From positions 1-34,741 of the forward strand of contig NZ_JAIVAE010000021.1 in assembly GCF_020171785.1 (NCBI RefSeq): 34,741 bases of DNA, given 5' to 3'. The position numbers were made by a program, and so were the translations under genes. Under the pieces are notes generated by a model. That model was not told where the DNA came from. It saw only the letters and a list, made by a program, of their open reading frames with translations, and ran no database searches. The DNA comes from Guptibacillus hwajinpoensis. GTDB taxonomy: Bacteria > Bacillota > Bacilli > Bacillales > Guptibacillaceae. Each line of letters starts with the position of its first letter. Positions within the stretch are counted from its first letter, which is position 1. This document shows, one piece after another, positions 4,296 to 7,982 of this stretch.

Positions 4296-4754
4296 ATGAA
4301 TGATACGGTATCGTTTCGATCGATGACCATTGAAGATATTGAGGCTGTGATGCGGATTGAGCACGCAACTTTTCCAACACCATGGAGCAGATCTGCTTTT
4401 TATAATGAAATCGTCATAAATCATTTCGCGACTTATCTTCTACTGGAAGTTGGAGAAGAAGTAGCAGGCTATTGCGGGGTATGGGTCATTATTGATGAGG
4501 CGCATATTACGAATATCGCTCTTCATCCAGAGTATCGCGGGATGAAACTAGGAGAAGCGCTTCTAAACAAAGCAATTCATTTTGCAAAATCACGCGGGGC
4601 ATTAAAAATAACACTTGAGGTTCGCGTGTCGAATATCGTAGCGCAAAATCTATATCGGAAATTTGGTTTTGAAGAAGGCGGCATTCGCAAAAATTATTAC
4701 ACAGATAATCAAGAGGATGCGCTAGTAATGTGGGTGAATTTAAATGGAAAATAA
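4296..4754 (+). CDS. rimI: Ribosomal protein S18-alanine N-acetyltransferase RimI-like (GNAT)
   Basis: A 152-residue GNAT acetyltransferase. The acetyl-CoA pyrophosphate loop is at residues 81-86 (RGMKLG), preceded by the strand ITNIALHP, and the C-terminal [12 protein letters not shown] segment is typical of RimI. In E. coli RimI acetylates the N-terminus of ribosomal protein S18; the target here is inferred. The start has AGGGG upstream. Its place between tsaB and tsaD is conserved in Bacillaceae. It overlaps tsaD by 11 bases. Confidence 0.9.
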
Positions 4755-5760
4755 ACATGAAATTATATTAGGAATTGAAACAAGCTGCGATGAAACAGCA
4801 GTTGCGATCGTAAAAGATGGGAAAGAAGTATTAGCGAACGTGGTAGCGTCTCAGATTGAAAGTCATAAACGTTTTGGAGGCGTCGTCCCTGAAATTGCTT
4901 CAAGGCATCATGTGGAGCAAATGACATTGATTCTTGAAGAAGCTTTAAATGAAGCAGGACTTACAATGGATGAGATTGATGGCATTGCTGTGACTGAGGG
5001 CCCCGGACTTGTGGGGGCACTCTTAATCGGTGTAAATACAGCCAAAGCGCTTGCTTTCGCTCACCAGAAGCCACTAATCGGTACACACCACATTGCAGGG
5101 CATATTTATGCCAATCAGCTTGTAGCAGAGTTAACTTATCCACTGCTAGCGCTGGTAGTGTCTGGTGGGCATACGGAGCTTGTTTATATGCCGTCTGAAG
5201 GTGAGTTTGAGGTAATCGGTGAAACACGTGATGACGCAGCTGGAGAAGCTTATGATAAAGTCGCAAGAACGCTACAGCTTCCTTACCCGGGAGGACCACA
5301 TATTGATCGATTGGCAGCTGAAGGAGAACCATCAGTTCCACTGCCTCGTGCCTGGCTTGAAAAAGGGTCATATGATTTTAGCTTTAGTGGTTTGAAGTCG
5401 GCGGTTATTAACACTGTTCATAACGCGAAACAACGTAACGAAGAACTGAAACCGGAGGATCTTGCGGCAAGTTTTCAGGCTTCTGTTGTCGAAGTACTGG
5501 TTACGAAGACGTTGCGAGCGGCTGAAGAGTATGGCGTGAAACAAGTTCTTCTTGCTGGTGGTGTAGCAGCAAACAAGGGCCTAAGAAGTTCTTTATTAGA
5601 AGCTTTTGAAGATAGCGGTAGAGAGCTTGTGATTCCACCATTGTATTATTGTACGGATAATGCTGCGATGATTGCAGCTGCTGGAACGATCGCTTATCGA
5701 AAAGGTAAACGTTCTAGCCTTCAACTTAACGCAAATCCGGGATTAGAACTGGGAATCTAA
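4744..5760 (+). CDS. tsaD: tRNA threonylcarbamoyltransferase TsaD
   Basis: The catalytic subunit that transfers the threonylcarbamoyl group to A37 of tRNA, working with TsaB and TsaE from the same operon; formerly called Gcp. The 338 residues are normal for the family. Visible are GIETSCDET (residues 10-18), [10 protein letters not shown], the metal-binding HIAGH (H116 and H120), VSGGHTEL and [10 protein letters not shown]. The start lies inside the end of rimI with a GGGTGA ribosome site. Its last codons form the left arm of the operon terminator. A cluster of DnaA-box sequences begins 74 bases downstream. Confidence 0.96.
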
Positions 5761-5773
5761 TCCTGGTTTTTTT
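5737..5773 (+). terminator. Terminator of the thiL-tsaD operon
   Basis: An 11-bp stem (5737-5747 with 5756-5766, one G-T pair) built from the last tsaD codons and the bases after its stop, followed by seven T residues. The stop codon lies in the right arm. Confidence 0.88.
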
Positions 5774-5833
5774 GTTATAAAGCGTCTAATTGTCGTTTTG
5801 GCTGAACGGGAAAGAGGATGTTAATAAGAACAA

Positions 5834-6005
5834 TTATCCACAATCAGGAGAATAGTGTGGACATTATAAGAGAAAGCTTAATCCAATGAGGTTCTCTTAA
5901 ATTGTGGATAACTAGTTAGTGTCTTGTTGATAATGTTAATAATTTTTAGAAAATGAGGTTTGTCAGCTATTCAATTGTGCATAAGTGTGTGGATAGTGTG
6001 AATAT
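5834..6005. promoter_or_regulatory. Cluster of DnaA-box sequences between tsaD and the ABC-F gene
   Basis: Three exact matches to the DnaA-box consensus TTATNCACA occur: TTATCCACA at 5834-5842 (plus), and its reverse at 5903-5911 (TTATCCACA) and 5976-5984 (TTATGCACA). One-mismatch copies lie at 5925-5933, 5988-5996 and 5997-6005, the last two directly adjacent; a weaker copy is at 5856-5864. This 299-base gap holds no gene. From memory, the same gcp-ydiF gap in B. subtilis is one of a few DnaA-bound clusters outside oriC that restrain replication initiation. Function here is inferred. Confidence 0.75.
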
Positions 6006-6026
6006 GTCGGAAAATTCTTGCCTAAT

Positions 6027-6058
6027 AAAAAAACAGTCCACTGTGGACTGTTTTTTTT
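6027..6058 (-). terminator. Terminator of the ABC-F gene, possibly two-way
   Basis: A perfect inverted repeat, ACAGTCCAC and GTGGACTGT around a single T (6033-6051), flanked by A residues on the left and T residues on the right. It lies directly after the stop of the minus-strand ABC-F gene and could stop transcription from both sides. Confidence 0.85.
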
Positions 6059-6059
6059 A

Positions 6060-7982
6060 TTAGGCTTCCTGTAATTGTTCCCATTCTTCCATGAGTGTTT
6101 CCGTCACATGCCGCAAATGATCCATTTCTTCATTTAACTTCATTACTTTTTCATGATCTTCGAAGACGTCTGGAATACATAACTCTTCTTCGATTGCAGC
6201 AATGCGTAATTCAGCGTCATCCACTTCTTTTTCAATCTCTTCAATTCGTCGGAGCATTTGACGTTCTTGGCGTTTTGTTTCTTTATCTTGCTTAAAGCTA
6301 GATTTGCCAGATGAAAGAGATTGAGTAACTTCATTATTTTGTTGTTCAAGCGCTGCAAGTTCAGCAAGTTCCTGCTTTTTTTCAACATAATAATCATAGT
6401 CACCTAGATAAGGTGTAACACCATCCGTTGAAAGCTCGATAACACGCGTTGCGATTCTGTTAATAAAGTATCGATCATGTGAGACAAATAGGATTGTACC
6501 TGGGAACTGAATCAGCGCGTCCTCCAGTATTTCTTTGCTATCAAGGTCAAGATGGTTTGTTGGCTCATCCAGAATGAGAAGGTTGGATTTTTTCATCATT
6601 AATTTGGAGAGAGCAAGTCGGCCTTTTTCGCCACCACTTAAATCAGAAACGTTCTTCAACACATCATCGCCGGTAAATAAGAAGCGACCTAGTACGGCGC
6701 GAATATCTTTCTCATCAGTAAGAGGGAAATCATCCCAAAGTTCTTTTAAAACGGTCTTGTTCGAGTGGAGGTTGGTTTGTTCTTGGTCATAAAAACCGAT
6801 TTGAACATTGCTTCCGTAATGAATATCGCCGTCGAGTAGCGTCTCCCCTGATACGATTGCTTTTAGCAATGTTGATTTTCCTATTCCGTTCGGACCTACA
6901 AGAGCGACACTTTCTTGTCGCTTTAAATCAAATGTTAGGTGATCGTTTATAACATTTTTAGGGTATCCGATCGATAATTCTCTCAGGGTTAGGACATCAT
7001 TACCTGTCTGTTTATCAATACCAAATGTAATGTTGGCTGATTTTTCATCACCTTTAGGCTTATCAAGACGTTCCATCCGATCGAGCTGTTTGCGACGACT
7101 TTGCGCGCGTTTCGTTGTTGAAGCGCGGACAATGTTTTTCGCAACAAAGTCTTCTAGCTTGGCAATTTCTTTTTGTTGTTTCTCAAACTCCTTAAGTTGC
7201 TGCTCATAACGTTGTTCTTTTTCATCAAGATAGTAACTATAGTTACCTTCAAAACGTTCCGCACGGTGTCTAGAAATCTCGTACACTTTAGTTACAATTT
7301 TATCGAGGAAATAACGATCGTGAGAGACAATTAATAAGGCACCAGAATAGTTTTGAAGGTAGCCTTCAAGCCATGTAAGTGTTTCAATATCTAGATGGTT
7401 TGTCGGCTCATCTAGAATAAGTAGCTCAGGTTTTGTAAGCAAAAGCTTTCCGAGAGCGAGTCGTGTCTTTTGTCCACCGCTAAGCGTTGAGATTTTTGTA
7501 CTGTAATCAAAATCTTTAAAGTTAAGTCCGTGTAATACGGTACGAATGTCTGCTTCGTACTTATAACCACCTTGATCTTTAAAGGCAACTTGAAGCTCGT
7601 CATATTCTTTTAAAATTCGCTCGTATTCAACCTGATTTTCGTACACTTTTGGATTACCCATCTTTTGTTCATATTGTCTAAGTTCTAATTCCATCTTTTG
7701 AAATCGTTCAAAGACGCTTAGCATTTCATCCCAGATCGAAAGTCCAGATTCGAGTCCAGTGTCTTGCGCCATATAACCAACAGCCACATCTTTTGGTTTA
7801 ATAATATCGCCTGAATCATATGAAAGTTGCCCGGTTATCATCTTTAGCAGAGTAGATTTACCAGCGCCGTTCCGCCCTACAAGCGCAACGCGGTCTCGTG
7901 ATTGTACTTCTAATTTAATATTCGATAAAATGGTATCAGCACCAAATGATTTCGTGAGTCCATTTACTTGCAATACGATCAT
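6060..7982 (-). CDS. ydiF: ABC-F family ATPase (YdiF-type)
   Basis: A 640-residue soluble protein with two ABC ATPase domains and no membrane segments, the ABC-F arrangement; family members act on the ribosome as translation factors or antibiotic-protection proteins. Domain 1 has Walker A GRNGAGKST (36-44), signature LSGGQKTRLALG and LLILDEPTNHLD. Domain 2 has GPNGIGKST, LSGGEKGRLALS and a second LLILDEPTNHLD. Between them is a basic, glutamine-rich linker, and the C-terminus is a charged coiled coil, as in YdiF. The ribosome site AGAGGTGA is 7 bases before the ATG. Position next to tsaD supports YdiF identity. Whether it gives antibiotic resistance cannot be told. Confidence 0.9.
   Translation of the reverse strand: MIVLQVNGLTKSFGADTILSNIKLEVQSRDRVALVGRNGAGKSTLLKMITGQLSYDSGDIIKPKDVAVGYMAQDTGLESGLSIWDEMLSVFERFQKMELELRQYEQKMGNPKVYENQVEYERILKEYDELQVAFKDQGGYKYEADIRTVLHGLNFKDFDYSTKISTLSGGQKTRLALGKLLLTKPELLILDEPTNHLDIETLTWLEGYLQNYSGALLIVSHDRYFLDKIVTKVYEISRHRAERFEGNYSYYLDEKEQRYEQQLKEFEKQQKEIAKLEDFVAKNIVRASTTKRAQSRRKQLDRMERLDKPKGDEKSANITFGIDKQTGNDVLTLRELSIGYPKNVINDHLTFDLKRQESVALVGPNGIGKSTLLKAIVSGETLLDGDIHYGSNVQIGFYDQEQTNLHSNKTVLKELWDDFPLTDEKDIRAVLGRFLFTGDDVLKNVSDLSGGEKGRLALSKLMMKKSNLLILDEPTNHLDLDSKEILEDALIQFPGTILFVSHDRYFINRIATRVIELSTDGVTPYLGDYDYYVEKKQELAELAALEQQNNEVTQSLSSGKSSFKQDKETKRQERQMLRRIEEIEKEVDDAELRIAAIEEELCIPDVFEDHEKVMKLNEEMDHLRHVTETLMEEWEQLQEA

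Follow-up and report, generated by a model that had tools for sequence, protein, structure and literature searches.

What does a cluster of DnaA boxes do between tsaD and an ABC-F gene (abcF), at a place where both genes end? This question is raised by a locus of Guptibacillus hwajinpoensis. The window analysed here is one stretch of 34,741 nucleotides from its draft genome; the part examined, positions 5834-6005, has 172 bases, and the gap is the DNA between the stops of tsaD and abcF. The original prediction stated that the corresponding gap of Bacillus subtilis, gcp/ydiF, is a DnaA-bound cluster, and the published table agrees: gcp/ydiF is region 4 of 269 in vitro DnaA-bound regions (region 3 in a figure legend) and lies downstream of both genes (PMC4447404). 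This region contains 10 sites and shows an apparent Kd of 0.15 uM for ATP-DnaA and 0.33 uM for ADP-DnaA, while in vivo binding was seen at only the eight strongest regions (PMC4447404). The array is the counterpart of this B. subtilis cluster, and its kind is therefore known. What is new is the depth of its conservation and the repetition of a single geometry. A literature search by titles and openings of abstracts found no paper on conservation or spacing of such clusters beyond B. subtilis, and Okumura 2012 and Ishikawa 2007 may describe such features. As described below, the content of the tsaD/abcF gap is best explained as an old, cis-acting, putative DnaA-binding array.

DnaA boxes between two 3' ends

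The gap is 299 bp long and 67% A+T, and the 3' ends of tsaD and abcF face each other across it, which is the same syntenic arrangement as in B. subtilis. A word scan of the window found exact TTATNCACA boxes at three places in the stretch examined, as had been predicted. The predicted number of one-mismatch boxes was three, and we found four, with one more just outside the span (Table). All six boxes between 5903 and 6005 have minus-strand orientation; the right-hand three had been described as sharing one orientation, with the last two adjacent, and this is the case. The boxes at 5925 and 5934 are exact in relatives, which supports the view that these one-mismatch boxes are real sites.

Table. 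Features of the tsaD/abcF gap and its neighbours (coordinates of the window)
Feature	Position	Strand	Remark
tsaD	4744..5760	+	TIGR03723, 447.7 bits
Terminator-like hairpin and T run at the tsaD end	5737..5766	+	-15.8 kcal/mol, z -3.78
Possible extra DnaA box TTATTAACA, one mismatch	5819..5827	-	Less conserved: 6/9 columns identical (same-genus comparison)
DnaA box TTATCCACA, exact, opposed to the main array	5834..5842	+	9/9 columns identical in 8 same-genus sequences
DnaA box TTATCCACA, exact, array offset 0	5903..5911	-	
DnaA box TTATCAACA, one mismatch, offset 22	5925..5933	-	Exact in many relatives
DnaA box TTATTAACA, one mismatch, offset 31	5934..5942	-	Abuts the 5925 box; exact in a number of relatives
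DnaA box TTATGCACA, exact, array offset 73	5976..5984	-	
DnaA box CTATCCACA, one mismatch, array offset 85	5988..5996	-	
DnaA box ATATTCACA, one mismatch, offset 94	5997..6005	-	Abuts the 5988 box; slot filled in about half of the aligned loci
Conserved non-box flank adjoining the last box	6006..6019		Same-genus and aligned-array comparison
Hairpin between A and T runs, between array and abcF, likely two-way terminator	~6023..6062		z -6.70 and -6.04; from folding, absent from the terminator scan output
abcF, ribosomal-protection-like ABC-F protein in the B. subtilis ydiF position	6060..7982	-	NF000355 above cut-off

With one hairpin at the tsaD end and another before abcF, the boxes sit between two likely terminators. 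One could suppose that DnaA regulates transcription of tsaD, abcF or an antisense transcript from here, since several further clusters of B. subtilis have DnaA-regulated genes beside them, sda and ywlC for example (PMC4447404). A scan of 5600-6200 also gave five promoter-like matches where 1.8 were expected, and all five were inside the gap. These are consensus matches only, however, and they overlap the AT-rich boxes. Moreover, the place is not that of a DnaA-regulated promoter: no gene start flanks the boxes, both genes end at the gap, and there is a terminator-like hairpin on each side. We therefore consider regulation of this kind very improbable.

Exact boxes are not in general excess in this genome (146 in 4.237 Mb on 35 contigs, versus 143 for the reversed word), and so clusters of them stand out. 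Over the whole window, boxes with at most one mismatch numbered 44 against 36.8 expected, which is no clear excess. At least three exact boxes within 250 bp were found at four places in the genome, whereas random placement of 146 sites gave a mean of 0.005 triples by simulation. Thus, like a B. subtilis-type cluster, the tsaD gap packs three or more boxes into a few hundred bp away from oriC, which is more than chance would give, and the enrichment that the original prediction proposed to look for is present. The other three places are upstream of dnaA (C13), the gap beside rlmD (C10), and the gap between ywlC and a gene that we take to be ywlB (C4). Weaker clusters were found between jag and mnmE and upstream of yqeG. 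Taken together, the tsaD-abcF, jag-trmE, ywlC-ywlB and yqeG-sda clusters mean that counterparts of four of the six B. subtilis non-oriC clusters are present, the last being called from the yqeG side. We also observed that the dense cluster on C4 (L137:2976-3204) lies upstream of ywlC (tsaC type) and extends into it. Since ywlC is another threonylcarbamoyl-adenosine gene, two t6A genes are located beside DnaA clusters, which may be coincidence.

The array is not oriC, because dnaA and dnaN are not beside it but on another contig, C13. Clustered boxes in A+T-rich DNA might also mark a latent or accessory replication origin. Scanning for at least three DnaA-trio-like units gave nothing but A-rich runs at the two ends of the gap, in a weak scan that yielded only short runs in the genome's own dnaA-dnaN region too, and use of an alternative origin is described as unlikely in B. 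subtilis after oriC block (PMC11019786). An origin function of the array is extremely improbable in our judgement.

Conservation and retention of the array

We surveyed relatives of the same order, and tsaD was found in all 120 genomes, own genome included. Downstream DNA was analysed in the first 106; the other 14 were added to the final tally only and are absent from the statistics on box words, template alignment, spacing, density, flank and periodicity. At least two exact boxes within 700 bp from the tsaD stop were found in 99 of the 120 genomes (91 of the first 106 and 8 of the later 14). Sixteen more had boxes or a match to the array model further along. In three of these the gap is long and the boxes lie towards abcF (G100, G030, G117), and in two the boxes lie downstream of tsaD at 1.2-1.4 kb (G108) or 0.7-0.8 kb (G038). 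Seven have a model match 1.6-5.5 kb downstream (G113, G063, G085, G051, G018, G072, G090; G063 is the weakest, with 34 bits), and the other four are G110, G074 (beside abcF on another contig), G081 and G050. No array was found in five genomes in the DNA readable after tsaD: G066, whose 32-bp gap has no boxes, G107 (3.2 kb), G048 (1.7 kb), G034 (0.9 kb) and G026 (43 bp).

The boxes are concentrated at this place. Exact boxes occur at 6.5/kb over the 500 bp that follow tsaD, compared with 0.34/kb in the 1 kb before, which is tsaD coding sequence, and 0.29/kb more than 700 bp downstream. A similar box density elsewhere, which would speak against a special role of the gap, was not found in the tsaD loci: at least two exact boxes were present in 88 of 106 500-bp windows downstream of tsaD versus 14 of 543 other windows, and part of those 14 may be displaced arrays. 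Facing tsaD/abcF gaps numbered 89 by the first count and 87 at a stricter abcF threshold. The 74 gaps of at most 1 kb, from 32 families, contained 295 exact boxes, 238 of them on the minus strand. TTATNCACA was the most widespread spaced eight-letter word, present in 73 of the 74 gaps, and 560 rearrangements of its letters, the box itself included, occurred 2.7 times on average compared with 295.

Outside the order, at least two exact boxes within 700 bp of tsaD were found in 41 of 80 genomes of the class, which represent 43 families; these genomes were drawn from a model-matched set to spread over families, with scores of the array model R1 in view. Such boxes were present in 12 of 16 genomes with a facing abcF and in 29 of 64 in which abcF was not recognised in the stretch read. 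The remaining 39 had fewer than two exact boxes, a count that refers to copies near tsaD. By 500-bp windows, the comparison was 41 of 78 versus 3 of 328 others, and 23 of 41 families had at least one such genome. Thus, conservation of the cluster at the same place, which had been predicted for one family, extends past that family to the order and the class. We did not use the number of R1 matches here. R1 gave 394 matches at E <=0.1 over 398 class genomes, and this was rejected as evidence for the tsaD array because R1 also matches oriC clusters; position beside tsaD was used instead.

Among 80 named loci, at least two boxes within 600 bp were found in five, all with a facing abcF: P. hwajinpoensis, Sporolactobacillus sp. 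THM7-7, two Saccharibacillus and Paenibacillus sp. BJ-4. None were found among these loci in other Paenibacillus, Enterococcus cecorum, Jeotgalicoccus meleagridis, Shouchella miscanthi (51-bp gap) or Acholeplasmatales, and one Erysipelotrichaceae locus had a single box. Boxes were found in 0 of 25 loci labelled Clostridia from record titles, three of which had less than 600 bp readable.

Rearranged loci are informative about what the array belongs to. When other genes part tsaD from abcF, the array lies near the 3' end of abcF (G018, G051, G085, G090, G113 and G063); in G072, another gene lies between array and abcF. G110 (L308), a genome with matches to two more pieces of tsaD, has its tsa block turned round, and the order there is abcF 3' end, array, tsa block. 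The boxes are inverted in place in G042 (L089) and G084 (L052), both of family f29, and the array is also found by tsaD where abcF was not recognised in the stretch read. REARRANGEMENTS show that the array is not tied to one gene or one orientation. This argues for a cis site that acts on DnaA and not on neighbour genes, and the retention of the array where no abcF is recognised nearby, or several kb of genes away from tsaD, is further evidence against its being a regulator of either gene.

We also found a second array. Thirty of 31 picked loci went into R1 (L112 was omitted); the window was among them and the second array was not. In all 14 genomes of the genus, R1 gave exactly two matches at E <=1e-4, one of which was beside tsaD. 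In the own genome, the tsaD gap scored 58.7 bits, which is partly a self-match because the window is in R1, and the second match (C10:32583-32686; L138:4583-4686) scored 44.4 bits, compared with 20.6 bits for the oriC cluster. The ywlC counterpart fits the tsaD geometry poorly (17.9 bits versus the 58.7 of the gap), and the jag-trmE and yqeG-sda counterparts had no match among the 150 of 1746 first-look candidates that were scored. The second array lies between facing 3' ends beside rlmD. It was found beside rlmD in all five neighbourhoods inspected: G000, G003 and G008 of the genus, G014 of a second genus and G066 of another family. It is about 430-472 kb from dnaA in G007, G008 and G010. In the class-level genomes G141 (L314) and G149 (L315), which belong to different families, second array matches were observed near flagellar and transport genes, presumably fliS-type genes and an amino-acid ABC transporter. 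Relative G359 has an array of yydA type, provided that the gene, which we named from its protein sequence, is what we take it to be. The second array is not among the top B. subtilis regions in the passages of PMC4447404 used here.

A recurring geometry

Of 106 loci, 82 could be fitted to a single template by ungapped alignment. Counted from 5903 in plus-strand coordinates, the minus-strand boxes are at offsets 0, 22, 31, 73, 85 and 94, although not all slots are filled everywhere; the outermost one holds a box with no more than one mismatch in 40 of the aligned loci. Of 45 order families, 31 have a locus in which four or more of the six slots hold such a box, and box columns were 65% identical between families versus 35% for other columns, both in an alignment that itself seeks the template. 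Outside the order, G149 and G311 again show neighbouring boxes in a 9-42-12 pattern. Within the genus (8 sequences), the share of invariant columns was 89% in the boxes and 36% in the spacers; it was 51% elsewhere in the gap, 79% at the end of tsaD and 73% at that of abcF.

Since the alignment seeks the template, spacing was tested separately on exact boxes, with each family counted once and positions shuffled within the 74 gaps of at most 1 kb (1000 runs). The 22-bp spacing occurred in 15 families, against a null maximum of 10 for this distance and 13 for any distance. Spacings of 73 bp (12 families, null maximum 7) and 51 bp (12, 8) were also above the null, as was a plus-to-minus distance of 100 bp (5, 4). 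The plus-to-minus distance of 79 bp was not (5, 5), and neither were spacings of 9 bp (10, 13), 31 bp (9, 10), 52 bp (5, 10) and 86 bp (6, 6). The 9-bp spacing is thus supported by the consensus that includes one-mismatch boxes and is not above the null with exact boxes alone.

All 13 template distances are at most 0.14 turn from whole 10.5-bp turns, which puts all six boxes close to a single helix face. Outside the order, family-counted distances share this phase (mean cosine 0.51 versus a null of -0.01, sd 0.08), and much of this is inherited geometry. Pairs that are not part of the template were weakly phased: values as high as the observed one came up in 163 of 5000 null draws for the order and 355 of 5000 for the class. 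In a separate periodicity test on such pairs, null runs were higher in 2000 of 2000 cases for the order and in 1891 of 2000 overall, and the class was marginal (26/2000). Forty genomes without the core distances were periodic (0/2000), but near-template distances were included. Our claim of phasing is therefore based on the template distances, which are inherited.

The opposed plus-strand box stands 69 bp away from the array both in the window and in two relatives, 79 bp away in five other members of the genus and 78 bp in one more, and a shift from 69 to 79 bp is ten bases, near one turn. In 18 families this distance falls into three groups (67-69, 76-81 and 86-89 bp), apart from two outliers.

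Beyond the last box, the flank at 6006-6019 was invariant in the 8 same-genus sequences. A similar flank was found in 22 of the 40 aligned arrays with the outermost slot filled, which belong to 7 of 18 families. Judging from the sequence, this flank may be a site for another protein. We dropped its reading as a Spo0A box, which we take to be TGTCGAA; the flank has TGTCGGA here, and several other families have TGTCAGA.

The cluster had been described as away from oriC. It is indeed at another place than oriC, yet it is origin-proximal, as B. subtilis-type clusters are: tsaD is 250-266 kb from dnaA in the same-genus genomes G007, G008 and G010 (the own genome is a draft). We searched 43 genomes for dnaA and left out G000, G055, G105 and G204, in which tsaD and dnaA are on different contigs. 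In 25 genomes with at least two boxes within 700 bp and with dnaA and tsaD on one contig, the distance was 218-567 kb, or 0.10-0.33 of the arm (median 0.17), with chromosome size taken from the contig. Nearness to the origin was rejected as a selected trait, because the median in 14 genomes without the array was 0.215 and the difference was not significant (Mann-Whitney p 0.21, 39 genomes). The near-origin position could thus simply come with tsaD synteny. A site for chromosome organisation or segregation, at which DnaA and other factors tether the origin-proximal region, would also agree with a location near the origin, with helical phasing and with independence of orientation. The partner that such a site calls for was not found, and the partly conserved flank by the outermost box is the sole hint of another binder. 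This makes a tethering function improbable, if somewhat less so than transcriptional control.

Proposed role and known DnaA-binding systems

The array bears on a wider problem, namely how the amount and the activity of DnaA are controlled in Bacillus and related bacteria. A recent review states that B. subtilis lacks Hda, IHF, datA and DARS, raises the question whether it has regulators that balance DnaA-ADP, and reports that roughly ten-fold overproduction of DnaA did not give over-initiation (PMC13220808). Deletion of six non-oriC clusters led to early initiation, strongly so only when all were deleted together, and one restored cluster relieved the effect in part (Okumura 2012, via PMC5295017); early initiation after this deletion is also described in the 2026 review (PMC13220808). 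In B. subtilis, titration is thus supported for the six clusters as a group.

We think it probable that the array is a DnaA-sequestering site that restrains initiation through ordered assembly of DnaA, as the counterpart of the gcp-ydiF cluster. Six co-oriented boxes near one helix face and an opposing box about 70-80 bp off would allow cooperative assembly of DnaA, probably mainly of ATP-DnaA. DnaA bound to the array would be withheld from oriC. Because the site is in the first third of the replication arm, it would be copied soon after initiation, the sink would double, and re-initiation would be restrained. The observation and the main idea of the original prediction were thus right, and we infer shared control through titration of DnaA; that the array has the same role in this organism, with its geometry serving cooperative assembly, would follow from the likeness to B. 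subtilis.

Passive titration needs affinity only, and so the recurring spacing is unexplained by titration itself. The geometry goes beyond that need and could serve cooperative, ordered binding or an activity on the bound nucleotide. In the second case, the array might be a device like datA or DARS that holds DnaA protomers for ATP hydrolysis or ADP exchange. The recurring spacing and phase, which exceed what a passive sink requires, point in this direction, as does the preference of gcp/ydiF for ATP-DnaA, with which 16-fold more DNA was recovered than with ADP-DnaA at 55 nM (PMC4447404). In E. coli datA, too, the spacing between DnaA box and IHF site matters for function (PMC4585315). However, the same geometry is equally expected for cooperative binding, and IHF, datA and DARS are all reported as absent from B. 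subtilis (PMC13220808). A device of this kind is therefore unlikely in our view. A broader proposal, that the 0-22-31-73-85-94 array is a standard element of Bacilli, employed both beside tsaD and, in this genus, at the second place, on which DnaA assembles on one face with an activity of its own (ATP-DnaA-selective capture or turnover), is put forward as a speculation, with a slightly better chance but still doubtful. It was said in 2015 that regions with a strong ATP-DnaA preference were too few to define its basis, and that sequence, spacing and orientation were likely determinants (PMC4447404). The order families with the array are a natural collection for this question, with the exact spacings named.

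Returning to ordered sequestration as the preferred role, we compared the array with two known systems. The B. subtilis gcp-ydiF cluster is alike in lying in the same gap, between the 3' ends of tsaD (gcp) and ydiF, and in having multiple boxes. The likeness rests on this gap and these boxes, and DnaA binding, ATP preference and the six-cluster effect are known in B. subtilis only. The jag-trmE, ywlC-ywlB and yqeG-sda clusters of B. subtilis have counterparts in this genome as well. E. coli datA needs IHF and promotes ATP hydrolysis, and these are the points at which the putative array may differ from it. The two are alike in that datA is a non-coding DnaA-box site near oriC that restrains initiation and in which spacing matters (PMC4585315, PMC5295017). 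If an activity of its own were true of the array, it would be a Gram-positive functional counterpart of datA and not a mere heap of binding sites.
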